This document shows positions 4,305 through 64,000 of a DNA stretch of 64,000 bases, piece by piece. The notes under the pieces are model-generated. The model was not told the DNA's origin and did no database searches. It worked only from the letters and a program-made list of their open reading frames with translations. This stretch comes from Bacteroidota bacterium (GTDB lineage: Bacteria > Bacteroidota > Bacteroidia > Bacteroidales > UBA12481): contig JABHCC010000104.1 of the NCBI GenBank assembly GCA_018669475.1, forward strand, positions 1 through 64,000, in the 5' to 3' direction. The first letter of the stretch is position 1. The number at the start of each line of letters is the position of its first letter. Made by a program: the position numbers and the translations under genes.

Positions 4305-5534
4305 CTAAACGTCTTCAGTTTGCATTAAAGCTTTAACAGTACGAAATAATATTTTTATATCACCCCAAAAAGTGAAGTTTCTTGCATATTCATTGTCAAG
4401 GCCCTTTCTCTCCTCATTTGACATGTCATCTTTTCCACGCTTTGTTACCTGCCATAGTCCGGTAATACCAGATGGTGCCAGAAACCTTTCCGTCCAATCA
4501 TCTGATGTCAATAACTCGGCCTCATACAAGGGAATTGGTCGATTTCCCACAATTGACATTTCCCCCCGTAATACATTCAATAGCTGAGGAAGTTCATCAA
4601 TACTGGTTTTGCGAATGAATCGGCCTACTTTAGTTACTCTCGGGTCATTTTTAATTTTAAAAAATGTTTCACCCAATTTTTCACGTTTAATTTGCAAATA
4701 TTGATTTTCACAAACTTCCCGATCATTGATATACAAAACTGATGAGCATTTGTGACCAAGTCTTTCGCATTCGGGACATGGTTTATCAAAAGCGTTATCC
4801 TCAGGTTCATTAGTTTCTTCAGTGTATTGATTCAAATGCTTTAACTCTTTGAGTTTAGCATCAGCACCAGTATACATTGATCTGAATTTAAAGAATGGAA
4901 ATATTTTATAGCCAGCGCCAACGCGTTTAGCAGCATAAAAAACCTTTCCTTTTGATTCTAACCTGATGGCCAGAATAATAAAGATAAACAATGGAGATAA
5001 AAACAGAAGAACCCCTGAAGCAAAAACAATATCAAATAAACGCTTTATAAACGGAATCTTAATCTCTGCCTGTTTTGATTCTACTAAGCTTAATACGGAT
5101 TGCTTTTTCTTAAATGGCATCAGGAATCCCAATCTGACAACAAGCTTTTCTAGATCCAGAGGTCGATTATAAATATCATCAACACCAATTTTAAAAGCTT
5201 TGAGCATTTCAGCTTTTTCAACTCCTCGTCCGCTAAGAATAAAAGGAATCGTCTGGTACCTGACTTTATTCATTAACTCAGTATGCAAAGCATAACCATT
5301 CATTCCGGGCAGAAAAATTTCAGACATTATAGCATCCGGCAGGTCATGATCTTCAAGCCATCTTATTGCCTGAAAACCATTCTCAACAACTGTTAATTTG
5401 AAGTTATCAGTATTAGATGCAAATTGATCAATGCTTTCCTTATCTGTTCCTATGTATAGAACCGCGACTTGTGAAAGTTCCACTTTTTCCATAATCATAG
5501 AATTACTCATTATGATGCGATAAAACGATTTCAA
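4305..5534 (-). CDS. Receiver-domain/sugar-phosphate transferase fusion (initiating glycosyltransferase)
   Basis: A 409-residue fusion. Residues about 22-137 form a response-regulator receiver fold, but the phosphoacceptor site reads DAIMSEIFLPGMNG, so Glu72 replaces the usual Asp, and the conserved Lys is Arg124 (YNRPLD). Residues about 162-405 are a bacterial sugar transferase of the WcaJ/PglC type with a hydrophobic hairpin (about 166-190), the FKFRSM motif and RKTSIDELPQLLNVLRGEMS, which attaches the first sugar-1-phosphate to undecaprenyl phosphate. An insert at about 250-277 carries four cysteines (C253, C256, C263, C276) that could bind metal. The annotated start overlaps the upstream regulator by 32 bp; an in-frame ATG at 5510 would give an 8-bp overlap and is equally plausible. 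Confidence 0.9.
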   Translation of the reverse strand: MKSFYRIIMSNSMIMEKVELSQVAVLYIGTDKESIDQFASNTDNFKLTVVENGFQAIRWLEDHDLPDAIMSEIFLPGMNGYALHTELMNKVRYQTIPFILSGRGVEKAEMLKAFKIGVDDIYNRPLDLEKLVVRLGFLMPFKKKQSVLSLVESKQAEIKIPFIKRLFDIVFASGVLLFLSPLFIFIILAIRLESKGKVFYAAKRVGAGYKIFPFFKFRSMYTGADAKLKELKHLNQYTEETNEPEDNAFDKPCPECERLGHKCSSVLYINDREVCENQYLQIKREKLGETFFKIKNDPRVTKVGRFIRKTSIDELPQLLNVLRGEMSIVGNRPIPLYEAELLTSDDWTERFLAPSGITGLWQVTKRGKDDMSNEERKGLDNEYARNFTFWGDIKILFRTVKALMQTEDV

Positions 5535-5880
5535 TTTTCAGAGACAACTCTTCAGGATTAAATGGTTTTATCATAAAATCATTCGCTCCGAGCTTATAGC
5601 ATTTAACTCTCTCAGAGCTACTGTCAACCCCTGATAACATCATAATCGGTATATCTTTGAAATACCCACTGGATCTAACATTTTTCACATAGTCATATCC
5701 ATCAAGAACAGGCATTTCAAGGTCAACTATCATAAGATCCGGAATATTCCCTGTTTGAAGCCAATCGAGTCCTTCCTGACCATTGGAAACAGCTGTAACC
5801 TCATATGTGTGACTTAAAAACTTTTCGAGCAAGGTCCGAATTGTTATTTCATCATCGACAACTAAGATTTTCTTTTTCAT
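5503..5880 (-). CDS. Single-domain response regulator (CheY-like)
   Basis: About 125 residues consisting only of a receiver domain. All key residues are present: the acidic pair in ILVVDDE, the phosphoacceptor Asp in DLMIVDLEMPVLDG, the Thr/Ser position in MMLSG and the Lys in MIKPFNPEE. I chose the ATG at 5880 (MKKKILVVDDE) over the upstream one at 5916 because the domain begins immediately and because this ATG is the 3' end of the dispersed leader repeat. It is the first gene of the exopolysaccharide operon and overlaps the receiver-transferase fusion. A canonical receiver beside a degenerate one suggests a regulatory input to polymer initiation, but the partner kinase is not identified. 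Confidence 0.92.
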   Translation of the reverse strand: MKKKILVVDDEITIRTLLEKFLSHTYEVTAVSNGQEGLDWLQTGNIPDLMIVDLEMPVLDGYDYVKNVRSSGYFKDIPIMMLSGVDSSSERVKCYKLGANDFMIKPFNPEELSLKIEIVLSHHNE

Positions 5881-6000
5881 CCGTTTATGTTTATTAATTG
5901 CTCCTGATTGAATCATGCGAGCTCACATAACAATAAAACAATAAAACATTTAAACCCATGAGTGTCAAGATACTATTGTTTTTGGTCATGCTCGGCTCAT
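5878..6000 (-). repeat. Dispersed leader repeat, divergent copy F
   Basis: Read on the minus strand this begins with GAGCCGAGCATGACCAAAA, keeps the middle block TTATGTGAGCTC and ends AACATAAACGGATG, whose ATG is the start of the response-regulator gene. The two inner CGGATG/CATCCG boxes found in the better copies are not recognisable, so this looks like an old, diverged member. Assignment rests on three separate matching blocks in the right order. Confidence 0.6.
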
Positions 6001-15271: not shown

Positions 15272-15290
15272 ATGAATCGAGCATGACAAA
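15272..15290 (+). repeat. Dispersed leader repeat, shortest copy G (5' box only)
   Basis: ATGAATCGAGCATGACAAA differs from the 5' box of the dispersed repeat by one base. Here the inner ATG (15283) is itself the start codon of the DUF3822 gene. It could be chance given only about 19 bp, but the match includes the exact ATG position. Confidence 0.45.
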
Positions 15291-16740: not shown

Positions 16741-18375
16741 ATGAAGAAGATTCTTACCCTTATTCTGCTCCTTGCAGCAGTTTCGAGTGCATTTTCACAA
16801 GATCAGGCTAAAAACAAAGCATTTAATGAAATAACCAAGCATGTCATACAGGGGCAGATGGAATTTCTGGCTTCCGACTGGATGGAAGGAAGAGAAACAG
16901 GAACAAAAGGTGCCTATATGGCTTCAGATTATATTGCAAGTATGTTTAAGGCCTTTGGATTGAAGCCTGGCGGTGATCCTGTACGTTCTTCAAATAGAGG
17001 AAGACGACCTTCGAACCCATCAGGAAACATTGCTAAACGAACTTACTTTCAAAACTTTAATCTTCTGGAATTCAGGCCAGGTGACACGCAGAAATGTTCA
17101 TTAATTGATATTTTTGAAGGTGGCTATAATGCTGTACATCTGAATTACGGAATTGACTTCACTCTAACGCCAGGAGTACAGGCCGTCACTGTTCAAAGCC
17201 CTGTTGTATTTGTTGGATATGGATTTAAAGGAGAAGGATATAACGATTACGAAACTGTCGATGTGAAAGGAAAAATTATCCTTAGGATTAATGGTTTTCC
17301 AGGACATAATAATCCCGACTCGAAAGCTTATAAAAAGTTTAGCGGCGACAGTCCGTATGCCAGATATATGATTAACAGGCAAAAGGATGAAGCAGCAATT
17401 CAAGCTGGTGCAGCTGCAATAATAGATATTTCGGCTGGTTCATCTGTTCGGGGTGACCCAAGTAACGTACCTTTCAGATATACTGATCAACGAACCAAGT
17501 ATGAAGGAGATGAGCCTTTCAGAACTGCCCCAAGAGTAAGATTATCTTTCCCTGATAAATCAGCACAAGGAATAACAAAAATCAACCTGTCGGCTAAAGC
17601 AATGACACAATTGCTCGACAATATTGGATTAGATATTGAAGCTTTTGAAGTCCAATCCCAGAAACTTAAAACCAATTCAAAAGTACTGGAAAATAAGGTA
17701 GTAAATATTGAAACATCTGTAGTTACACGTCTTATTCAGGCTAGAAATGTAATTGGCATAATCGAAGGTAAGAATCCTGAATCATGTATTGTTGCTGGTG
17801 CCCACTATGATCATTTAGGTACTGTTAGAGATTTCATCTATAATGGTTCTGACGACAATGCTTCTGGAACCGTTGGCATTATGACTATAGCGAAAGCAAT
17901 GGTTGAATCAGGGATACAACCAGAACAAACACTCGTATTTTGTTCCTGGACTGCCGAAGAGAAGGGTTTAATCGGATCAGCGTATTATGCTGACCATCCT
18001 CTTATTGAAGATATCAAATGCTATATGAACTATGATATGATTTCAAGAGTTGCACCAGATGATCCAAATAAGAACAAATGCGATTTTCAATTCACTTCAA
18101 CTGTACCAATCTTAAAAGAACTTACTGAAAACCATATCAGAGATTATAATGTCAATTTAGATATGAAATACAAAGGTTCTGAAGTTCCGGCTGGAGGTAG
18201 TGATTTCTCCTCTTTCTCGAGAAAGGGCATTCCAATTTTCTTATTACATGGAAAGTTCACGCCAGATTATCATCAGTTTACCGACCATGTAGAAAAGGCT
18301 GAATGGACTTACATGCGAGATATCATCAGAGTTGGATTTTTAAATTTATATGAATTAGTAAATTATAATTGGTAA
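16741..18375 (+). CDS. Secreted M28-family metallopeptidase (copy 1)
   Basis: A 544-residue exported zinc aminopeptidase. A signal peptide ends near residue 19 (AAVSSAFSQ). A PA-like insert domain occupies the middle (about residues 130-330), and the catalytic M28 domain shows the zinc ligands: GAHYDHLG (about 353), GSDDNASGT, the general-base pair CSWTAEEKGLIGS (about 402), YDMIS and a terminal HQFTDHVE (about 511). All five ligand positions are intact. It is followed 18 bp later by a paralogue with the same architecture. It probably releases N-terminal amino acids from peptides outside the cytoplasm. Confidence 0.94.
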   Translation: MKKILTLILLLAAVSSAFSQDQAKNKAFNEITKHVIQGQMEFLASDWMEGRETGTKGAYMASDYIASMFKAFGLKPGGDPVRSSNRGRRPSNPSGNIAKRTYFQNFNLLEFRPGDTQKCSLIDIFEGGYNAVHLNYGIDFTLTPGVQAVTVQSPVVFVGYGFKGEGYNDYETVDVKGKIILRINGFPGHNNPDSKAYKKFSGDSPYARYMINRQKDEAAIQAGAAAIIDISAGSSVRGDPSNVPFRYTDQRTKYEGDEPFRTAPRVRLSFPDKSAQGITKINLSAKAMTQLLDNIGLDIEAFEVQSQKLKTNSKVLENKVVNIETSVVTRLIQARNVIGIIEGKNPESCIVAGAHYDHLGTVRDFIYNGSDDNASGTVGIMTIAKAMVESGIQPEQTLVFCSWTAEEKGLIGSAYYADHPLIEDIKCYMNYDMISRVAPDDPNKNKCDFQFTSTVPILKELTENHIRDYNVNLDMKYKGSEVPAGGSDFSSFSRKGIPIFLLHGKFTPDYHQFTDHVEKAEWTYMRDIIRVGFLNLYELVNYNW

Positions 18376-18393
18376 CCAATAAAATAACACTGC

Positions 18394-20046
18394 ATGAAAA
18401 CTATCAGAGTACTACTTATTTTTACTTTCCTTGTAGCCTCATTTACCCTGATTCAGGCACAGGATACCGGTAAGGATACCGGATTAGAAGCAATAACTAA
18501 AGGCGCTATTCAAGGTCAATTGGAATTTCTTGCCTCAGATTGGACTCTTGGAAGAGAAACTGGTGCTGAGGGAGCTTACATGGCTGGTGATTATATTGCC
18601 AGTATGTTCAAAGTTTTTGGATTGAAGCCTGGAGGAGACCCTAAACAAAGAAGTTACAATATGAGAAGCTTCCGCCGTGGTGGAGGTACACCACCACCAC
18701 CTGAACAGAGCTATTTTCAAAACTTTAATCTCGTTGAAACCTGGCCAGGTGAAAAACAGGAATTCAGTGTTGTATCAAAAAAAGATGGAGGATATAAGTC
18801 TGTAGATTTTAATTACCAAACTGATTTCTCATTAAGCCCGGGTCAAACCGGAATCGAAGCAGAAGTTCCTGTTGTATTTATTGGATACGGTTTAAAAGAT
18901 GATGCTAAAGGTTATAATGACCTTAAAGGATTAGATCTTAATGGAAAGATAGTAATCAAACTATCAGGCTTTCCAGGACATAAAGCTCCAGGGAGTATAA
19001 CTTATGAAAAATTCAAGCCTGAAGAGCAAAGCAATCAAGCAAATCGATTTAGACGTTATGGAGGTAGCAGGAATACCTGGGCTAATGAAGCAGGCGTTCT
19101 AGGGATAATAGAAGTGAATCCCAACCGGGATCCAACAGTTGTATGGGTTAAAAATATTCCATACAAAACAGAAGGAAGATCCAGAAGTGGTGTTAGTAAA
19201 TCCCTAAGACGAATGGGTGATCAGCTGAGTCAAAGAGCTGCAACCTTTCAGGTAACTCAAAGAGTCATTAGCGAAATCATTAACGGACTTGATTTTGATA
19301 TCGAAGAACTTGAAAATAAGATTGCTGAGACAGGTAAACCTGCTTCAATGGAACTTCCTGGCAAATTTATTCGGTTCAAAACTTCAGTAAATTCTCGTAT
19401 TGTGCGTTGCAGAAATGTTGTAGCCGTTCTGGAAGGAAAGGATACAACAAATGCAATTGTAATTGGCGGACACTATGACCATCTGGGAGAAAGAGATGGA
19501 TACATTTTTAATGGGGCAGATGATAATGCATCAGGAACAGTTGGTGTGATGACAATCGCTAAGGCAATGGTGGCTTCAGGAGTTAAACCAGAGAAGACAA
19601 TAGTATTTTGTGCCTGGACAGGAGAAGAAAAAGGTTTGATTGGATCGGGCTATTTCGTTGACAATCATTATGACTGGAATATACTCTGCAATCTTAATTA
19701 TGATATGATATCTCGGAATAGTCCGGGTGAAGATCAGGACAAGAAAATTTCAATGACTTTTACAAGCACTTTCCCTGTTTTTCAGGAGCTTACTCAAAAG
19801 CATAATGATGAATACGATTTGGGCTTCGATATTAACTTCAGAGGCAGTGAAAGACCAGGTGGTGGAAGTGATCATGCTCCCTTTGCCCGTGCAGATATTC
19901 CTGTTTTCTATTTCATGGCTGGATTCCCTCCGGAGTATCATCAGCCAGAAGATCATGTAGAATTAGTCTTATGGGACAAAATGCTGAATATTATTAAATT
20001 AGGATATCTCGATATTTATGAACTAGCAAATATGAATTGGGAATAA
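18394..20046 (+). CDS. Secreted M28-family metallopeptidase (copy 2)
   Basis: A 550-residue paralogue of the preceding gene, with signal peptide (about residues 1-22), shared N-terminal block QGQLEFLASDWTLGRETG, PA-like insert and M28 catalytic residues GGHYDHLG (about 357), GADDNASGT, CAWTGEEKGLIGS, YDMISR and HQPEDHVE (about 516). The insert domain diverges most (an RRYGGSRNTWAN segment and a PPPPE stretch near residue 100), suggesting different substrate specificity after duplication. A terminator-like hairpin follows between this gene and the convergent barrel gene. Confidence 0.94.
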   Translation: MKTIRVLLIFTFLVASFTLIQAQDTGKDTGLEAITKGAIQGQLEFLASDWTLGRETGAEGAYMAGDYIASMFKVFGLKPGGDPKQRSYNMRSFRRGGGTPPPPEQSYFQNFNLVETWPGEKQEFSVVSKKDGGYKSVDFNYQTDFSLSPGQTGIEAEVPVVFIGYGLKDDAKGYNDLKGLDLNGKIVIKLSGFPGHKAPGSITYEKFKPEEQSNQANRFRRYGGSRNTWANEAGVLGIIEVNPNRDPTVVWVKNIPYKTEGRSRSGVSKSLRRMGDQLSQRAATFQVTQRVISEIINGLDFDIEELENKIAETGKPASMELPGKFIRFKTSVNSRIVRCRNVVAVLEGKDTTNAIVIGGHYDHLGERDGYIFNGADDNASGTVGVMTIAKAMVASGVKPEKTIVFCAWTGEEKGLIGSGYFVDNHYDWNILCNLNYDMISRNSPGEDQDKKISMTFTSTFPVFQELTQKHNDEYDLGFDINFRGSERPGGGSDHAPFARADIPVFYFMAGFPPEYHQPEDHVELVLWDKMLNIIKLGYLDIYELANMNWE

Positions 20047-21269: not shown

Positions 21270-22703
21270 TTAGAAAACAACACTGGTTTTACTTTCATAT
21301 GTAATACCATCGATTTTATCTGTCACAACTGTTATCACATCCCTGACACCTTCCTTGCCCCCAGGAATATCTGAAAAAGAGATTGTTCCTGTTTGAAGAA
21401 ATTCTGTCCTTACAGGTGAGGGATTATAACCATCTGACCCAGAAACAGTAAGGGTCACCCAAACACCTCCTTCAACTGGGCAAACAACGTCGCATGATAC
21501 CGAGTAGTTTCCACCAGGGGAAGGGTTCCCCGAGATTTTAATGATGCCCAAATAAAATTCGCCACCAACATCCCATGAATATGACCCAGGATTATTCGGA
21601 TCAAATGAAGTTAATTCAGTTGATTCTGTTCCATGACCCGGAATACTTACATCCAGTTTATAGACATATGACACGCCTGGTGTAAAAGCTTGATAGATCT
21701 CGTAGCCCGACAAACAAGCGGTTTCGTAGTTGCCTGATTCAGCTAATTGCTCTCTCAGCTTACAAAAATCAGGGAATCCGCCAACAATATAAGGACAAAC
21801 GGCAGACGCCGCAGTTAGCAAAGTTGGATCCAATTCAGTTTTTGCTGATATCTTCTTATTCATCTTATCGCAGATGACTCCGGGAGGATGTGCTTCTCCA
21901 GAAAAATTCTCATTTGACAAATTATAAGCAAAACACACATCTGTCAATCCCTTCATTATTGAATTACACAATTTATTTGCATTGGACTCTTGAGATTGTG
22001 AGGGAATATTGAACGAATAATTCCCTGTTTTGTCTCCATCACTCGTGTAGTTTGCCCCTGTGATGGGAGGTTCAATAGTGAGCGTAACACTGGCATCCTT
22101 AACCAGTTCTCCACATTTAAAAATCTCAAAACTCATATTCCCAACCAATCCTTTGTGCGCTTTTGTCACAGCTTGGTCACTATGATTAACCAACAATTCA
22201 GGTTGGATATTACCTCGATCGCTGGGTACTATACTATTTGATTCCCAAGAAGAATTGAAATCTCCTGGAGAAAATAATACAGAAACAGTTTCCTCGCCTG
22301 TTGGCCATATTATAGTTATAAGCATGGCTGTATCAGAGGGGTAATGATATTCATAAACGAACCCATTCGGTGCAGTAACTCGTTCTGGCAACAAATCATC
22401 ATTCAACATAGTCACATAATAATCATCATCACCAGGATACTTAGTATAGAAATAGGTTATTCTTTCGGTTGCCCCTTCTTCGTCTTTTTCACCAAAGAAA
22501 ACAAATTCAGTATTGTCCCCAGTTGATACTTTGGCAACTGTAGGGTCAGTAGGATTGGTAAAAACCTCCATCTCTTTGATCTCTGATGAGGAGCCAAGAC
22601 CATAACTCTCTAATGTATCAGAATAGCCATAATCATTAATTTCCTGGCATGCATTCAGCATAACTATCACAAAGATTAGTCCTAAGTAATTAAGTCTTTT
22701 CAT
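21270..22703 (-). CDS. Large lipoprotein of unknown function, start codon inside dispersed repeat
   Basis: A 477-residue lipoprotein with signal MKRLNYLGLIFVIVMLNAC (lipobox Cys at residue 19). The mature protein is beta-rich and Gly/Asp/Ser-rich with several cysteines between residues 190 and 330 and an Ig-like C-terminal part (VWVTLTVSGSDGYNPS). No family recognised; surface exposure is plausible but not shown. Its ATG is the last three bases of the long dispersed repeat copy A, which therefore supplies its whole translation initiation region. Confidence 0.78.
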   Translation of the reverse strand: MKRLNYLGLIFVIVMLNACQEINDYGYSDTLESYGLGSSSEIKEMEVFTNPTDPTVAKVSTGDNTEFVFFGEKDEEGATERITYFYTKYPGDDDYYVTMLNDDLLPERVTAPNGFVYEYHYPSDTAMLITIIWPTGEETVSVLFSPGDFNSSWESNSIVPSDRGNIQPELLVNHSDQAVTKAHKGLVGNMSFEIFKCGELVKDASVTLTIEPPITGANYTSDGDKTGNYSFNIPSQSQESNANKLCNSIMKGLTDVCFAYNLSNENFSGEAHPPGVICDKMNKKISAKTELDPTLLTAASAVCPYIVGGFPDFCKLREQLAESGNYETACLSGYEIYQAFTPGVSYVYKLDVSIPGHGTESTELTSFDPNNPGSYSWDVGGEFYLGIIKISGNPSPGGNYSVSCDVVCPVEGGVWVTLTVSGSDGYNPSPVRTEFLQTGTISFSDIPGGKEGVRDVITVVTDKIDGITYESKTSVVF

Positions 22704-22802
22704 CCGTTTATATTTATTTTATTTGTCGGATGGAGCTCGCATAACAAAAACAATCATCCGGTTCTGTGTTAAAATATTTTCCCTTCGTCATGCTCGGTTC
22801 AT
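22701..22802 (-). repeat. Dispersed leader repeat, full copy A
   Basis: Read on the minus strand: 5' box GAACCGAGCATGAC near 22800, box 1 CGGATG (22755-22760), middle block TTATGCGAGCTC, box 2 CATCCG (22727-22732) and box 3 CGGATG (22701-22706) whose ATG starts the lipoprotein gene. Boxes 1/2 and 2/3 are perfect 6-bp complements, so two alternative hairpins are possible. Confidence 0.9.
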
Positions 22803-23407: not shown

Positions 23408-23481
23408 CGGTCACGACGAGACTCGAACTCGCGACCTCCGGCGTGACAGGCCGGCATTCTAACCAACTGAACTACATGACC
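23408..23481 (-). tRNA. tRNA-Asp (GTC)
   Basis: A 74-nt cloverleaf on the minus strand: acceptor arms GGTCATG/CGTGACC (one G-T pair) with discriminator G, D-arm with AGTTGGTTAGA, anticodon stem-loop CCGGCCTGTCACGCCGG with anticodon GTC, and T-loop GTTCGAGTC. CCA is not encoded. It is the only tRNA in the window and is followed by its own terminator. Confidence 0.97.
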
Positions 23482-23580: not shown

Positions 23581-23683
23581 CATCCGTTTATATTTGATTT
23601 TATTTATCGGATGGAGCTCACATAACAAAAACAATCATCCGTGTGGTTGTTAAATATTTTTCCTTTTGTCATGCTCGGTTCAT
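23581..23683 (-). repeat. Dispersed leader repeat, full copy D without a following gene
   Basis: A complete copy with all three boxes (23636-23641, 23608-23613, 23581-23586). Unlike the others, the terminal ATG opens only a three-codon frame (Met-Lys-Phe-stop). It begins 5 bp after the stop of the phosphoesterase gene and ends about 100 bp before tRNA-Asp, which is the next gene on that strand. Confidence 0.9.
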
Positions 23684-31657: not shown

Positions 31658-33007
31658 CTATAGTTCCCAACCATTTCGGTATTCCCTGCGGATATATTTG
31701 TTGGCATCCTCATTGTTTGTAACAGTCATATTCTCACCATCCCAGAGTAATCTTTCTCCGGGTACGCGGATAGCCAGATTACCCATTAGAACCATTTCAG
31801 TAAGTGGTCCTGAATAATCAAAGTTCGAACTTGCGGGTTCCCCACCCTTACAAGCTTCAACCCAATTCATCTCATGACTGGTTTCGATTCGTTTGAGTGT
31901 TTTGGGTAAAGTTTTATATTCGAGGAATCTTTCCTCAGGAAACATTTGCACATCATCTCCGTAGGTTGAACAAATTATCACTCCTTTTTCACCAATAAAC
32001 ATTGAACCACCACCCATTGGAATTTTTGCACCATCAAGTTCAGCTGGCCATTCAGGCAGGATTCCGCCATCATACCATTTCAGCTTAACCGGAGGCATTC
32101 CTTCTCTTGCTGGAAATTTATAAGTGATCATTGTAGCTCTTGGGTATGTTTCATTGTTTTCGAAACGCTTCCACATTTGCTGCACATCATATGATCTGGA
32201 TCCTTGCACCCAAATTGGATATTTTAGTTTCATTGCATTAAAGACCGGATCAAGAACATGACAACCCATGTCACCTAAAGCACCTGCACCAAAGTCATAC
32301 CATGCCCTCCAGTTGAAAGGCAGATATGTTGGATTATAGGGTCGCTCAGGAGCTGTTCCCAACCACAGATCCCAATCAAGAGTATCAGGTACGGGAACTG
32401 TATCGCTCGGCCGATCAATTCCCTGTGGCCATACAGGACGATTTGTCCAACTATGAACTTCTTTAACATCACCTATTGCTCCTGCCCATATCCATTCGGC
32501 TAAACGTCGCGTTCCTTCACCTGATCGCCCCTGGTTACCCATCTGTGAAGCTATATTATACTCTCTGGCTGCCTCTGTAAGCTTTCTGGCTTCAAAAACA
32601 TCATGTGTCATAGGCTTCTGAACGTATACATGCTGTCCTCTTTTTATTGCTGCCATTGCTGCAACGGCATGAGTATGATCAGGAGTTGCAACAATTACTG
32701 CATCAATAGATTTCTCCTTATCAAGCATCTTTCTGAAATCCTTGTATTGCTTGGCTTTCGGAAACTTTTTGAATGTTCCGGCGGCACGCGCAAAATCCAC
32801 ATCACACAGGGCAACAATATTTTCTGATGTAACCCTGCCTATATTACCACCTCCCATACCTCCAGATCCGATAGCTGCTATATTAAGCTTGTCACTTGGG
32901 GCAGTAAAACCTTTACCACCCAGAACATGTCTGGGAACTACCATCACACCAGCTGTTGCAACACCTGTTTTTGTAAGGAAATCTCTTCGAGATACTGTTT
33001 TTTTCAT
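31658..33007 (-). CDS. Tat-exported Gfo/Idh/MocA family oxidoreductase
   Basis: A roughly 449-residue NAD(P)-dependent oxidoreductase. The N-terminus MKKTVSRRDFLTKTGVATAGVMVV is a twin-arginine signal. The Rossmann region has IAAIGSGGMGGGNIG, then IVATPDHTHAVAAMAAIKRGQHVYVQKPMTHDV with the EKP-like Lys motif (QKP here), and a C-terminal Gfo/Idh domain with DMGCHVLDPVF. I start it at 33007, not at the upstream in-frame ATG (33058), since this places the Tat motif at the N-terminus and coincides with the 3' end of repeat copy B. Periplasmic members act on sugars or glycosides; the substrate is not evident. Confidence 0.92.
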   Translation of the reverse strand: MKKTVSRRDFLTKTGVATAGVMVVPRHVLGGKGFTAPSDKLNIAAIGSGGMGGGNIGRVTSENIVALCDVDFARAAGTFKKFPKAKQYKDFRKMLDKEKSIDAVIVATPDHTHAVAAMAAIKRGQHVYVQKPMTHDVFEARKLTEAAREYNIASQMGNQGRSGEGTRRLAEWIWAGAIGDVKEVHSWTNRPVWPQGIDRPSDTVPVPDTLDWDLWLGTAPERPYNPTYLPFNWRAWYDFGAGALGDMGCHVLDPVFNAMKLKYPIWVQGSRSYDVQQMWKRFENNETYPRATMITYKFPAREGMPPVKLKWYDGGILPEWPAELDGAKIPMGGGSMFIGEKGVIICSTYGDDVQMFPEERFLEYKTLPKTLKRIETSHEMNWVEACKGGEPASSNFDYSGPLTEMVLMGNLAIRVPGERLLWDGENMTVTNNEDANKYIRREYRNGWEL

Positions 33008-33108
33008 CAGTTTATATTTAATTTTATTTGTCGGATGGAGTTCGCACAACAAAAACAATCATCCGTGTGAGTGTTAAAATATTATTCCTTTTGTCATGCT
33101 CGGTTCAT
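33005..33108 (-). repeat. Dispersed leader repeat, full copy B
   Basis: Box 1 CGGATG (33060-33065), box 2 CATCCG (33032-33037) and a variant box 3 CTGATG (33005-33010) whose ATG starts the Tat oxidoreductase gene. The 5' box GAACCGAGCATGACAAAA is intact. Box 2/box 3 pairing has one mismatch here, while box 1/box 2 remains perfect. Confidence 0.9.
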
Positions 33109-34471: not shown

Positions 34472-35041
34472 TTAACAGAGGCTCCATACTTTTTTTGTTT
34501 TTGGTGAATAACTAGCTGACCTGATATCCCTGATCCGGTTAAATATGTCGTCTATTATCAGTATTCTGGCATAGCTGTCAGCCTGATAATAGCTCAGATC
34601 CAGAGCAGCTGAGTTTGTGATTGATCTGAAATTAAGTATTACAGGAAGTTTCTTGAAAACAAACCATCCCGGCTGATCAAAATCCCACTTGACACCTGAA
34701 CCCTCAAGGCGCAAGGTCAATTCTTCCCAGGTTTCAATTTCTTCTTCTGTCCAGTACATCATTCCGGTACTAAATCTCAATCCGATTTTCAATTCATCCT
34801 GCATTTCAATGCAAAACCTCAATTCATGAGATCCGATCCTGCCAATGTTAAAAGACAGGCCATAGAATCCTGATTGCTCTTTGTGGTGATGACTGTTAGC
34901 TAAACGATTCCACACCTTTTGCCTGCTCGTGAGGTGACTGATAGTTTCCCACTCCGGATGATGACCGCTCTTTTGAATAACTGTAAATAAATCTAACCAA
35001 AATCGTTTTTCCAGCTTAATTCTTTCTTCAATCGTTTTCAT
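34472..35041 (-). CDS. Small unknown protein, possibly DUF4268-like
   Basis: A 189-residue soluble protein starting MKTIEERIKLEKRFWLDLFTVIQKSG. The arrangement (helix, then GLSFNIGRIGSHELRFCIEMQ, IGLRFSTGMMYW, WEELTLRLEG, KWDFDQPGW) recalls the DUF4268/nuclease-associated beta-sheet fold, but I cannot confirm membership. No catalytic motif is visible. Its ATG is supplied by repeat copy C, and the WYL regulator is transcribed divergently from the same 220-bp region, which may control it. Confidence 0.75.
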   Translation of the reverse strand: MKTIEERIKLEKRFWLDLFTVIQKSGHHPEWETISHLTSRQKVWNRLANSHHHKEQSGFYGLSFNIGRIGSHELRFCIEMQDELKIGLRFSTGMMYWTEEEIETWEELTLRLEGSGVKWDFDQPGWFVFKKLPVILNFRSITNSAALDLSYYQADSYARILIIDDIFNRIRDIRSASYSPKTKKVWSLC

Positions 35042-35147
35042 CTGTTTATATTTAATTTAATTTAATTTGTCAGATGGAGCTCGCATAACAAAAACAATCA
35101 TCCGCGTGAGTGTTTAATAAATTTTCCTTTTGTCATGCTCGGTTCAT
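35039..35147 (-). repeat. Dispersed leader repeat, full copy C with compensatory base changes
   Basis: Box 1 CGGATG (35099-35104), box 2 CATCTG (35071-35076) and box 3 CAGATG (35039-35044). Relative to other copies, boxes 2 and 3 both changed so that they still pair perfectly, and box 1/box 2 keeps a G-T wobble. The AATTT-rich spacer between boxes 2 and 3 is expanded. Box 3 ATG starts the 189-residue gene. Confidence 0.9.
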
Positions 35148-43069: not shown

Positions 43070-46000
43070 TTAGGAATCCATGTCCTTTATTGCTGCAGCA
43101 GTTGCAGTCATCACATCATCCTTGACTAAATTATCAGGAGAGCCGGCAAAAACAACCCGTCCTCCATTATCTCCAGCTCCAGGACCAAGTTCAATAATCC
43201 AATCTGCTTTTGAAATGAGCTCCTGGTCATGATCAATACTGATTATCATGTTACCCTGAGACGCCAAATCCCTCATTAATTCACAGTATCCTCTTAAACT
43301 AATTGCATCTAGTCCCTGACCAGGTTCATCAAATAAAATTACTTTCTTTTCTGTGCCCATATCAAGCAATTGACGCATTAGCACTAGTCTTTGTCTTTCA
43401 CCGGGGGATAACTTATGCCCATGCTGACCAGCGATCAGATACCCCAATCCCAGGGAACTCATTATTCTTCTAGCTTTATCTTTGCCTTGAAAATCAGGAA
43501 GAAAATCGAGTATCTCACTCAATGTCATTAACATACACTCAGTAATCATTCTTTGATTATAAGTATACTCTGAAACTGTTTTATTGTATCCTGTGCCCGA
43601 ACAATCCACACAGCTATTCACAGCAGTTCCCAAAAAGTCAAGTTCAGTTTTCTCAAAACCTCGACCCTGGCAACTTTCACAGCGTCCTCCTTTTGAGGTT
43701 CTTTTAAAATAAGCTGGTTTACGTCTATATTCTCTTCCTTTATCCGAATCTGAATAACATTTGAATAAAACCGTATCCAGACCCAATTCCCTGATTGGCA
43801 TTCGATACCAATTCCAAATAATACCAGTATTAAGATTATCAATTATTGTAAAGTTATCATGAGTAATGCTCATTTCCTCACAATGAATACCAACTCCCGA
43901 CACCAGGCTGGTGGCAATAACATCATTCAACAAAGTAGATTTCCCGCTGCCTGAAACTCCACAGATTGAAATCCACCCAAGAGGTAAATCCAGGCATTCA
44001 ATATTCAGATTTCTGAAAGCAACTCCCCTCATTCTTATAAACAATACATTTGACAAAAAATCAGGTCTGGCAACATTTTTAAACTCTCCTTTTGCCATCG
44101 TGTTGGAATTGTTCTTTTGTCTGTATTTATGAATAATTTGCCCTCCTTGTTTACCTCCACCGGGTCCGAGTTCAATAACAGAATCAGCCTGCTCAATCAG
44201 CCATGGATTATGATCAGTAAAAATAATTGCATTTTGCTGCCTGACTAATTCTGCGAAAATTTCTTGTAAGTATTTCAGGTTGGCAGGGTGTAAGGAGTTT
44301 GAGGGTTCATCTAAAATGAAAAGTATATTATTCAAACCAGATACTAATTGCCCAGCTAAACGGGTCCGCTGATATTCTCCTGCAGATAAACTATGGGTTG
44401 ACCTGTTTAAACTCAGATAGCCCAGCCCAAGTTTCATCATAAATGACAATACCTTTTCCATTTCATCAAGTACGGCAAGAATCAGTCGTTTCGGCCCCGG
44501 TTTAAATCGGGATATTATATTATTATTACGGACTTCAGAAAGGGATAGTTGCAGGTCTGAAATGGTACAGGAGAGCCAATCAGCAAGACTTTTGCCAAGA
44601 AAGGTATATTTCAATCGATCGGCTTGAATTCGAAATCCCTGGCAATCAGAACAAATAACCGGACTGAGTATATCTTCCATGGTCTTTTGGCGACTAGTTC
44701 CTGCCTTTTTTTGATAATCAGCCTGAATTAATGGTATAAAACCCAACCACTTACTATTGAAAATATGCTTTCCTGCAAGATTCTTACGCTGGTATTTCCA
44801 TTCCACAGAATATTCAATATCACCAGTACCAAACAAAATAAGATCCTTTTCTGTTTCGCTAAAATCTCTCCAGGCAGTCTGAATTTCTATCTGATGTTTA
44901 CTTGCCATACTCTGGAGTATAGCCATATATTGACCTTTTGGCTCAGAAAAAAAGGCACCCGTCCGACTCCCCTTCATAGCTCCGTTCAACAGAGATACTT
45001 CCTGATTGTTGATAAGTTGCTCTTCTTTAACTTCCATTTGATAACCCAGCCCATGACAAGCAGAACAAGCTCCTGCCGGATGTAAAAATGAGAAATGGTT
45101 TGCCCACAATTTTGACTTTGCTGACTTATCGTCCACAGAGAACCTCGAAAATAATAATCGAAGGGATGAGCTTATTCCCAATAAAGTAGCAATAGTGGAA
45201 TACTTAACATTTACAGGTTTTGTACTTCTGATTCCAATTGCCGGCAGCAAACCCTGAATATCTTTTACCTCACCCGATTCTTTGCCTCCCAGAAGTGATC
45301 TTACGTAAGGAGAAAATGACTGAGCAAATAAATAGTTTGAGCTCGCCAATATTGTATCGAAGGCCAGACTTGTTTTTCCTGACCCTGACACTCCTGTAAT
45401 AACTGTAATCCTGTTATGGGGTATCTCAATATCTATATTTTGTAGATTATTGGTGTTCACCCCTTTCAAAACCAACTGTTTATCAAGAGGATGTTCCTTT
45501 TTTGAAGGAAGTTTAAATGATTGAAATATCTTATTGGATTCATGTATAGATCTGGCCATCAAAGAGTTTTGCGACAATAGGGAATCTGCCCTACCTTGAA
45601 ATACTACTTCACCCCCTTTCACTCCTGCCCCGGGACCCAATTCAATAATCCAATCAGCTAATTGAATAATATACGGGTCATGTTCCACAAGAACCAAAGT
45701 ACTACCCTTCTCAACCAATTTCTCAAAGCCCCTCAATAATATAGCAATATCAGCATAATGCAGTCCATTTGATGGTTCATCCAATAAGTATAAACAGTGA
45801 TGTGACCTGCCTTTAATCAATTCTGCTACCAGTTTTATTCTTTGAGCTTCCCCTCCGGATAAGGAAGAAGAGCTCTGACCCAATTTGATATAACCCAACC
45901 CCATATCACGCAATAAAACAAGATATTTCAGAATTTTTGCATGATCAAAAAAGACCTCTACTGCCTGATCGATTTCCAAATCCAGTATCTGGGCAATATT

Positions 46001-47971
46001 CTTACCCCTCCAAAGAACCTCTAATATTTCAGGCTTGAATCTTTTTCCTAAACAGGTATCACAGGGTGCTTCAGTTTTTCCAAGGTAGCTTAAACCAATC
46101 TCGATCTTGCCAGCTCCAAGACAAGCCGGACATCTTCCTCCCTCCACATTGAATGAAAAGTTACTTTTTGTGAATCCTGCTTCCTTTGCTTCAGGCAATG
46201 ATGCATATAAATCACGAATCTTATCAAACAACTTCGTATATGTTGCCGGATTACTTCTGGGAGTTCGTCCTATCGGAGCCTGATCAATCCATATGGTTTG
46301 TTTTACCGGATCGGGCACTATAACCTTATCAACTGGCACATTCGAACTTCCATTAAAATATTGTTGAAGGATATTATATAACAAGCTTGATTTTCCTGCA
46401 CCTGATACTCCGCATATGACATTTAGGGCTCCAGTTCTCAGTTTTAATGAAATAGATTTTAAATTATGTGCTCTGGCACTAATCACCTCAATAAAACTAT
46501 CAGAATAATTATTGCTGTTGGTCCATGACAATTCCTTTATACCTGAAAAATATTCCCAGGTTTGACTTTTTGCCAGCAAGGACGGGGATCCGACCAACTC
46601 TGTCATATATCCTTCCACAACTATTTCTCCACCACGGAATCCAGCTTCAGGACCAAACTCAATCCAATAATCAGCTTGTTGAAAACTAAAGAACTTGTGA
46701 TCAATACATACAATGGTATTTCCTTTTTGCTGCACATCCTTAAGCAAACTGAGAAGATTATTATGATCTGCCGGATGTAAACCCACTGTTGGTTCATCCA
46801 ATGTATAAATCAATCCTGACAAACCTGATTGCAACAGACTTGCCAGTTTTACACGCTTACTTTCTCCACCTGATAAAGACCGGCTCTCTCTGTTCAAACT
46901 GAGATACCCAAGGCCTAGCTTACAAAGAGCAGTACTCAGCTGAATTACTGAATTAATAATTTCCCTTTCACCGCCTGATAATTCAGTGGAATTGACCAAT
47001 GATAGCTCTTCAGCAAAACTATCTACTGATAATTCAGCCCATTCACCAATATGACGACCCTGCCATTTCACATCCAGGGAGCTTCTTTTCAGACGATATC
47101 CTTCACAAACCGGGCATCTTCTTGATTTGGTGTATTTAAGAATATTTGCATTTCTATCCCGCTTCAGAATTTCCTCCATTATGGTCAATATACCCCGATA
47201 ATAACCTTCGTCCCTGGGCTTCGCCGTAATACCAGTCCATTTCATTCTGGATTCTAGGGTATGCTTACCAAAGGGCACCTTAAGAAGAGTACTCCCGTAA
47301 AAAATAATGTCTTTTTCGAATTCCGATAATTGATCCCATGGTTTGTTTATAGAAAATCCCTCAGCATGACAAACCGTTTCCAGAACATCCAATGTTACCT
47401 GAGAGTAGATTACATAACCAGTTGGGGTTGTTAAGCTTAGCGCTCCATTAAGAAGTGATTTCTCCGGATAATCAATAAAAGTATCAGGGTCAATATATTC
47501 CTCTTCTCCTAAACCCTGACAGTGTTCACAAGCACCTGCGGCAAGATTAAAAGAAAAATGAGATCTGCTCAATACAGATCTTTCAGTCTTATTAATGAGC
47601 CCATATCGTGAAAAAAGAAGTCTTAAATGATCATACAAACCACTAAACGTGCCTATACTTGAACGAATTGAATGTGTGCCAGTAAGCTGATCAAGAGAAA
47701 TGACCGGACTCATCCCTGTTATCTTATCAACATCAGGTGGATGAATACCAGCAAGTACTGTTCTTATGCGAGGATTTTGCTGTTCTAAAAACCTGCGCTT
47801 CCCTTCGCTTGCAATAACATCATGAACCAAAGAAGATTTCCCTGATCCTGAGACTCCGGTAACTAAAATAAATTTGTTTTTTGGGATTTGAAGATTGATA
47901 TCCTTCAAATTATTTTCCCGAGCACCTGTGATTATTATGGCATCATCCCACGATGCTGTTGAGTTTCTCAT
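43070..47971 (-). CDS. Double-length UvrA-like ABC ATPase (four nucleotide-binding cores)
   Basis: A 1633-residue soluble protein equal to two UvrA-type chains in tandem. Walker A motifs are at about residues 39-46 (GVSGSGKS), 521-528 (GVSGAGKS), 860-867 (GVSGSGKT) and 1338-1345 (GVSGSGKS). ABC signatures are at about 366 (LSGGESKR), 704 (LSGGEAQR), 1195 (LSAGEYQR) and 1521 (LSPGERQR), with matching DEP Walker B sites. Zn-finger Cys pairs CxxC(x)G recur (for example 148-151, 286-289, 614-617, 1431-1434). Each half is about 815 residues, the size of UvrA2 proteins without the UvrB-binding domain. It overlaps the 93-residue gene by 29 bp. DNA-damage or drug-tolerance role is inference. Confidence 0.93.
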   Translation of the reverse strand: MRNSTASWDDAIIITGARENNLKDINLQIPKNKFILVTGVSGSGKSSLVHDVIASEGKRRFLEQQNPRIRTVLAGIHPPDVDKITGMSPVISLDQLTGTHSIRSSIGTFSGLYDHLRLLFSRYGLINKTERSVLSRSHFSFNLAAGACEHCQGLGEEEYIDPDTFIDYPEKSLLNGALSLTTPTGYVIYSQVTLDVLETVCHAEGFSINKPWDQLSEFEKDIIFYGSTLLKVPFGKHTLESRMKWTGITAKPRDEGYYRGILTIMEEILKRDRNANILKYTKSRRCPVCEGYRLKRSSLDVKWQGRHIGEWAELSVDSFAEELSLVNSTELSGGEREIINSVIQLSTALCKLGLGYLSLNRESRSLSGGESKRVKLASLLQSGLSGLIYTLDEPTVGLHPADHNNLLSLLKDVQQKGNTIVCIDHKFFSFQQADYWIEFGPEAGFRGGEIVVEGYMTELVGSPSLLAKSQTWEYFSGIKELSWTNSNNYSDSFIEVISARAHNLKSISLKLRTGALNVICGVSGAGKSSLLYNILQQYFNGSSNVPVDKVIVPDPVKQTIWIDQAPIGRTPRSNPATYTKLFDKIRDLYASLPEAKEAGFTKSNFSFNVEGGRCPACLGAGKIEIGLSYLGKTEAPCDTCLGKRFKPEILEVLWRGKNIAQILDLEIDQAVEVFFDHAKILKYLVLLRDMGLGYIKLGQSSSSLSGGEAQRIKLVAELIKGRSHHCLYLLDEPSNGLHYADIAILLRGFEKLVEKGSTLVLVEHDPYIIQLADWIIELGPGAGVKGGEVVFQGRADSLLSQNSLMARSIHESNKIFQSFKLPSKKEHPLDKQLVLKGVNTNNLQNIDIEIPHNRITVITGVSGSGKTSLAFDTILASSNYLFAQSFSPYVRSLLGGKESGEVKDIQGLLPAIGIRSTKPVNVKYSTIATLLGISSSLRLLFSRFSVDDKSAKSKLWANHFSFLHPAGACSACHGLGYQMEVKEEQLINNQEVSLLNGAMKGSRTGAFFSEPKGQYMAILQSMASKHQIEIQTAWRDFSETEKDLILFGTGDIEYSVEWKYQRKNLAGKHIFNSKWLGFIPLIQADYQKKAGTSRQKTMEDILSPVICSDCQGFRIQADRLKYTFLGKSLADWLSCTISDLQLSLSEVRNNNIISRFKPGPKRLILAVLDEMEKVLSFMMKLGLGYLSLNRSTHSLSAGEYQRTRLAGQLVSGLNNILFILDEPSNSLHPANLKYLQEIFAELVRQQNAIIFTDHNPWLIEQADSVIELGPGGGKQGGQIIHKYRQKNNSNTMAKGEFKNVARPDFLSNVLFIRMRGVAFRNLNIECLDLPLGWISICGVSGSGKSTLLNDVIATSLVSGVGIHCEEMSITHDNFTIIDNLNTGIIWNWYRMPIRELGLDTVLFKCYSDSDKGREYRRKPAYFKRTSKGGRCESCQGRGFEKTELDFLGTAVNSCVDCSGTGYNKTVSEYTYNQRMITECMLMTLSEILDFLPDFQGKDKARRIMSSLGLGYLIAGQHGHKLSPGERQRLVLMRQLLDMGTEKKVILFDEPGQGLDAISLRGYCELMRDLASQGNMIISIDHDQELISKADWIIELGPGAGDNGGRVVFAGSPDNLVKDDVMTATAAAIKDMDS

Positions 47972-52981: not shown

Positions 52982-53030
52982 ATGAACCGAGCATGACAAA
53001 AGGAAAAATATTTTAACACACACACGGATG
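52982..53030 (+). repeat. Dispersed leader repeat, short copy E joined at box 1
   Basis: ATGAACCGAGCATGACAAAA, then GGAAAAATATTTTAACAC and ACACACGGATG. Relative to full copies this ends at box 1, whose ATG (53028) is used directly as the start codon of the downstream gene; boxes 2 and 3 are absent. It starts 8 bp after the mnmD stop. Confidence 0.85.

Positions 53031-62560: not shown

Positions 62561-64000
<1,440 letters not shown>

Follow-up and report, generated by a model that had tools for sequence, protein, structure and literature searches.

Seven loci in a stretch of Bacteroidota DNA (the window, the whole 64,000 nucleotides that were analysed) share a repeat that commonly ends on a gene start codon. 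We consider it highly probable (about 0.88) that this repeat is a mobile element, non-autonomous and some 85-140 bp long, with the target ATGAA, whose insertions at start codons spare the gene and turn the unit into its 5' leader. All seven loci listed by the first-pass annotation of the window carry the repeat: four hold full units, one a diverged unit, one a short form and one a remnant (Table 1). That annotation had placed six of the seven on gene starts. Five of these begin at the terminal ATG of the unit, the sixth begins at an internal ATG instead, and the copy at 23581 departs from the pattern. About 100 bp downstream of that copy is a tRNA gene.

Table 1 Copies of the repeat unit, example hairpin arms and a neighboring tRNA gene in the window.
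Feature	Position	Strand	Relation to genes or structure
Full unit with terminal ATG	22701-22802	minus	start codon 22703-22701 of 477-aa protein at 21270-22703
Full unit	23581-23683	minus	terminal ATG opens 3 codons only; non-start insertion
Full unit	33005-33108	minus	terminal ATG (33007-33005) is start of GFO/IDH/MocA oxidoreductase, 449 aa
Full unit, 109 bp	35039-35147	minus	terminal ATG is start of 189-aa protein at 34472-35041
Diverged unit, 123 bp	5878-6000	minus	terminal ATG (5880) is start of response regulator at 5503-5880, 125 aa
Short form, 46-bp unit	52982-53030	plus	ATG at 53028 is start of 174-aa lipoprotein-like protein
19-nt 5' remnant (18/19 match)	15272-15290	plus	internal ATG (15283) is start of DUF3822 protein, 283 aa
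Hairpin P1, 5' strand example (about GCATGACAAAAG)	33087-33098	minus	pairs with TTTTTGTTGTGC stretch further into unit
Hairpin P2, example	33005-33039	minus	CATCCG...CTGATG, one mismatch in this copy; start codon in 3' arm
tRNA gene	23408-23481		

In gene orientation the unit reads ATGAACCGAGCATGAC...CATCCG...CGG and then ATGA or, at greater length, ATGAACCGAGCATGAC...AACACACACGCGGATGATTGTTTTTGTTGTGCGAGCTCCATCCGAC-(A/T-rich)-ATATAAACGG and then ATGA. It extends from ATGAA, across two hairpins, up to just before a second ATGAA, and in tandem units the ATGA closing one unit is also the ATGA opening the next. The short form of ~46 bp lacks the segment between two internal copies of CGGATGA, and short forms also end on start codons. 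No transposase gene is found inside the unit, and terminal inverted repeats are absent when the unit ends are read directly (ATGAACCGAG against TCATCCGTTT, the reverse complement of the other end). Anaerophaga DSM 12881 also contains longer units (L334-L339, 216-570 bp) whose 5' end is identical to that of normal units and which stand in tandem with them; these hold an inner AGATTCTTCGTCG...TCATTCTGAGCG palindromic repeat, and inspection of these arrayed units revealed no gene of transposase size. Another dispersed repeat of ~165 bp (L158:1673-1841 in DSM 12881) is present in dozens of copies in both Anaerophaga strains, and its tail, judged by its text, resembles the 3' end of the unit.

The genome from which the window derives (5.56 Mb) carries at least 142 copies, as identified with a 105-position sequence model from 150 scored candidates. 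With this first model, 14 of 99 relatives carried the element at lower sequence similarity, and a structured model identified carriers in 41 of 295 sampled genomes of the order, representing 31 of 183 genera. A pattern scan of named genomes added Anaerophaga thermohalophila (two strains), Thermophagus, Marinilabilia, Draconibacterium and several Bacteroidota MAGs. The repeat is spread through many marine and sediment Bacteroidota, including named Marinilabiliales. The unit pattern matched none of the viral contigs, and carriage as phage cargo was rejected on that basis.

We compared 28 probe matches between Anaerophaga DSM 12881 and Valhall, two strains that are ~92% identical. The cleanest pair (L194 vs L283) has flanks that are 91% and 92% identical on the two sides. 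In short form, with a slash at each junction, the empty site reads ...GCGAT/ATGAACAAAC and the filled site ...GCGAT/ATGAAACGAGC...ACTG/ATGAACAAAC; over a longer stretch, Valhall reads TCGTGCGAT/ATGAACAAACAACAACTGG and DSM 12881 reads TCATGCGAT/ATGAAACGAGC...TATACTG/ATGAACAAACAACAACTGG. This is a single insertion, or a precise loss, and its junction coincides exactly with the start codon of a 284-aa ORF. Another clean pair (L157 vs L286) is located at a non-start ATGAA that, with the flanks joined, lies antisense within an ORF, and a third (L182 vs L282) differs by an extra, different unit within a tandem. Many other Anaerophaga sites are shared, bear remnants, or have upstream sequence too diverged to judge. 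Identical copies were found in two further genomes: G263 has seven units, and G225 (a closed, complete chromosome) has three, that are 100% identical, lie between unrelated flanks and end exactly at ATGAA. The repeat is mobile, since strains differ by empty and filled sites and identical recent copies occur between different flanks. This supports the first-pass proposal of a mobile or spreading cassette, including the insertion/empty-site pairs between strains that it had named as support. Copies in the window's own genome have a median identity of 91% to the consensus, with no identical pair, and are old, while those in G263 and G225 are new.

The sequence that follows the terminal ATG identifies the target. 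Position +4 is A in 112 of 116 copies and +5 is A in 113 of 116 (~97%), while of the native ATG starts in that sequence 35% read ATGAA, which argues that the pentamer is required by the element rather than being a property of the genes. The bases ahead of the target also depart from randomness, with T or G at -1, and the target may be longer than ATGAA. The first-pass annotation had further noted a common orientation relative to genes; orientation is indeed fixed, but it follows from the asymmetry of the target.

As the first-pass annotation had expected of copies elsewhere, most abut start codons: genome-wide, 97 of the 116 non-tandem copies that have a terminal ATG carry an ORF of 60 aa or more starting at it. 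For full-length non-tandem copies in the same genome the figure is 53/59 (90%), with four tandem copies among the script's ten non-starts set aside by hand, and at least one of the apparent failures is a real start missed by the ORF rule (metG). ORF calls and start assignments are mechanical throughout, and most of the genomes are MAG drafts. Outside the window's genome, copies coincide with starts in 14/27 cases in DSM 12881, 5/11 in BMS3Abin03 and 18/23 in the remaining genomes of the scan, and 34 of 40 units in the order-wide sample end on ORFs of at least 60 aa. In the fresh bursts the counts are 3/7 (G263) and 1/3 (G225), or 4/10 together. With crude ORF calling, the proportion of ATGAA sites outside coding interiors that are starts is ~61% in the window's genome, ~35% in DSM 12881 and ~37% in BMS3Abin03. 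In genomes with recent copies only about half of the copies lie on starts, a proportion near that expected by chance for ATGAA outside coding sequence, and the affinity for start codons as such implied by the first-pass annotation is mostly unsupported. We conclude that the start bias is due mostly to the target and to loss of coding insertions, strengthened over time by retention at starts. In the window's genome the observed 90% exceeds the ATGAA-matched expectation of 61% (p about 1e-6). This excess may not be fully explained by purging of coding insertions alone, which leaves selective retention or a real preference for starts as its source.

The same data bear on whether the copies could be MITEs derived from a DDE transposon, decaying in the ordinary way, avoiding genes and meeting start codons by chance. 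Such MITEs would share with the unit its short, non-coding and dispersed nature and its lack of a transposase, but the unit has no terminal inverted repeats, ends exactly at ATGAA in every group examined, and shows both fixed orientation and a start excess. This explanation is close to untenable, and it was rejected on the missing terminal inverted repeats and the exact target. The RU/ERIC, BOX and RUP repeats, which are MITE-like, are not known to end on start codons. These small enterobacterial and pneumococcal repeats are similar to the unit as ~100-bp dispersed non-autonomous repeats (PMC2759123, PMC3049150).

For the mobile element that we favor, insertion occurs in one orientation and leaves ATGAA at both ends, at the 5' end of the unit and as the first five bases after it. 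At a start codon (ATG AA.), insertion keeps the coding sequence and the host promoter intact and the unit would form the 3' part of the 5' leader; where the target ATGA is an operon stop/start overlap, both genes survive. Insertions inside genes are largely absent and presumably lost, which would let copies accumulate at start codons, more so with age. Single-strand or site-specific recombination machinery would be supplied in trans, and translation from the A/T-rich 3' end of the unit would be near-neutral.

Upstream sequences suggest how the host gene is expressed behind a unit. The Bacteroidota -7-box TAnnTTTG occurs at -40 to -21 of the unit's 5' flank at 0.103 per sequence, compared to 0.108 in native upstream regions, with few occurrences within the unit itself (0.065 per copy), suggesting that the promoter lies upstream and that transcription includes the unit as leader. 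Among the genes that follow units are metG, mnmA, hisB and aroC, so the leader must permit translation. The first-pass annotation had proposed that the repeat donates a translation-initiation region. The unit does take the place of the ~100 nt that immediately precede the coding sequence, and it may actively drive translation. At some operon junctions, the TGA of the upstream gene is the TGA of the unit's 5' ATGA, and both genes are thereby preserved. Units truncated at the 5' end are also found between co-directional genes (G000 C7:35243, C171:246229, C214:229972 and others), with the stop codon of the upstream gene within the unit; in these cases units are reshaping gene ends in operons. In G000, hisB and a gene read by eye as histidinol-dehydrogenase-like each begin at a unit (C59:37584 and C59:39953, L069) 2.3 kb apart, which is a repeated insertion in one his gene cluster.

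Contrary to the first-pass statement that no named repeat has this property, mycobacterial MIRU repeats are described as inserting at start codons (PMC12548453, citing Supply et al. 1997). They are the only named precedent that we found. A description of the ATGAA repeat itself was not found in the open literature searched, which is weak evidence given its limited coverage. As described in PMC12548453, MIRUs are short, mobile-looking repeats at start codons with ATGA junctions and tandem arrays, and they leave the downstream gene intact. The Bacteroidota unit likewise inserts at start codons or ATGA overlaps, as seen in the empty/filled pair and in upstream stops within the 5' ATGA, and forms tandem arrays with a shared junction. 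In contrast, the internal ORF that overlaps the downstream start by 4 nt in MIRUs is absent here, and conserved hairpins take the place of a coupled ORF. MIRUs also occupy mainly operon overlaps, whereas the Bacteroidota unit uses ATGAA both in intergenic space and at starts that follow promoters. The two belong to different phyla and were compared by description. Because the coupled ORF is lacking, we do not file the unit as a MIRU.

The same comparison raises the reading that the unit is a MIRU-like translation-coupling cassette, in which ribosomes translating an internal ORF would be brought to the gene where that ORF stops, at the terminal ATGA. In its favor, the unit resembles MIRU in inserting at start codons, in its ATGA ends and in its tandem arrays (PMC12548453), and its 5' end can read ATG AAA CGA GCA TGA, with a further ATGA overlap. 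In a wider sample of 78 units, however, the terminal TGA is not consistently reached by any ORF: 28 units have a stop codon immediately before it, and most of the remainder have no in-frame start codon. Unit length is not fixed modulo 3, and the frame of the 5' mini-ORF is not conserved (GAGCCATGA variants), which makes such coupling very improbable.

Two hairpins are conserved in the unit. In P1, GCATGA pairs with TCATGC around a variable loop, and in some genomes an extra C on one side is matched by an extra G on the other (GAGCCATGA...TCATGGCGAG). In P2, CATnnn pairs with nnnATG, where the ATG is the terminal (start) codon, and the three variable pairs change together (CATCCG/CGGATG, CATCTG/CAGATG, CATATG/CATATG and others). 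The named structure is paired in 97.1% of cells across 49 distinct sequences from the order. P2 shows 31 two-sided changes compared to 7.2 in shuffles, with none of 500 shuffles as high, and sliding the pairing partner abolishes the signal. The alignment used was fitted to the model, and a MAFFT alignment shows the same covariation. Folded as a single sequence, the consensus shows no unusual stability. The unit has no Rfam match at or above gathering score, whereas the first-pass annotation had named such a match as grounds for refutation; the best weak hit is a snoRNA (E 1.5), and the window itself returns only tRNA. A riboswitch or known structured RNA was rejected for want of such a match.

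These hairpins could instead belong to a conserved regulatory RNA leader, a translation attenuator kept by hosts since the start codon lies in P2, with mobility secondary. P2 always includes the start codon and covaries across the order, and the start fraction in the window's genome is high. In three Draconibacterium genomes (L148, L187, L196) a 443-aa gene is preceded by one and the same insertion, which is long-term retention at one start codon and also favors a role for the host. Against this, the genes downstream of the unit are functionally unrelated, as the first-pass annotation had observed in arguing against a ligand-specific riboswitch, and copies differ between close strains. In some genomes about half of the copies end without a gene yet keep the structure, and because these retain the same pairing, mobility alone can maintain the covariation. 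A regulatory leader as the primary explanation is therefore unlikely.

Movement of the unit requires an enzyme acting in trans. No mobilising gene was found, nor was an autonomous parent in the form of 5' and 3' halves paired around a transposase gene. The leading candidate, which we would place short of probable, is an HUH/Y1 transposase of the IS200/IS605 or REP/RAYT kind that mobilises the unit as single-stranded DNA in trans. This proposal supplies the enzyme step of the mobile-element explanation and does not compete with mobility. Opposite the gene, the strand reads TTCAT/...GGAA...hairpin P1...TTCAT/, and the internal TTCCAT could guide the ATGAA/TTCAT cleavage site. Like IS200/IS605-derived REP/PATE elements, the unit has no terminal inverted repeats, has subterminal hairpins (P1, P2), and has a fixed short target (ATGAA) adjoining one end, with the transposase presumably acting in trans in both. 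It differs from them in having neither a linked Y1 gene nor a GTAG/CGTC tag, in its length of ~100 bp, and in a target at start codons. TnpA-REP families with atypical flanking structures have been reported in Bacteroidetes, none of them there with an ATGAA target (PMC6006769).

Additional support for an HUH/Y1 enzyme comes from the conserved (T)TCCAT, complementary to ATGAA save one bulge, from a Y1_Tnp protein encoded in 19 of 21 carriers examined, and from two Y1 loci with a unit within about 1 kb. However, Y1_Tnp is also encoded in 14 of 20 non-carriers (Fisher p = 0.13), its tree has no carrier-specific clade, and it is missing from G267 (98% complete, at least 13 units) and from G002. 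The Y1 gene of the window's genome is not flanked by a unit. The lagging-strand insertion bias of REP/PATE elements is not seen in G225, where 17 of 35 units are on the leading strand, with origin and terminus placed from coarse GC skew. A broader and more doubtful reading is that the units form an order-wide, trans-mobilised family, not described before, in which the internal (T)TCCAT is a built-in guide for the start-codon pentamer ATGAA and pairs with the unit's own end in a hairpin that serves both as a DNA recombination substrate and as an RNA leader hairpin over the start codon.

The repeat illustrates a way for a mobile element to land safely on start codons, with the target restoring the start codon and the rest becoming leader. 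It is an independent parallel to mycobacterial MIRU, with strain-level empty sites. Leaders of dozens of genes per genome have been rewritten, housekeeping genes included, which amounts to a natural experiment on what Bacteroidota 5' leaders need for translation. The repeat also points to a recombination enzyme that can be sought directly.

Other features were observed in the window. A 1633-aa UvrA-like protein is encoded at 43070-47971 (minus), compared to about 940 aa for a normal UvrA; UvrA models match it in four stretches, and it resembles the long UvrA model NF001885 below the cut-off. A short-period repeat of the GGTTCTGGTACAG type with 12/18-bp spacing lies at 63018-63258 and encodes a Ser/Gly/Thr-rich stretch or its complement. 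Two adjacent, similar ORFs of 544 and 550 aa (16741-18375 and 18394-20046, plus) share DNA blocks that are 70-87% identical and represent a tandem gene duplication.
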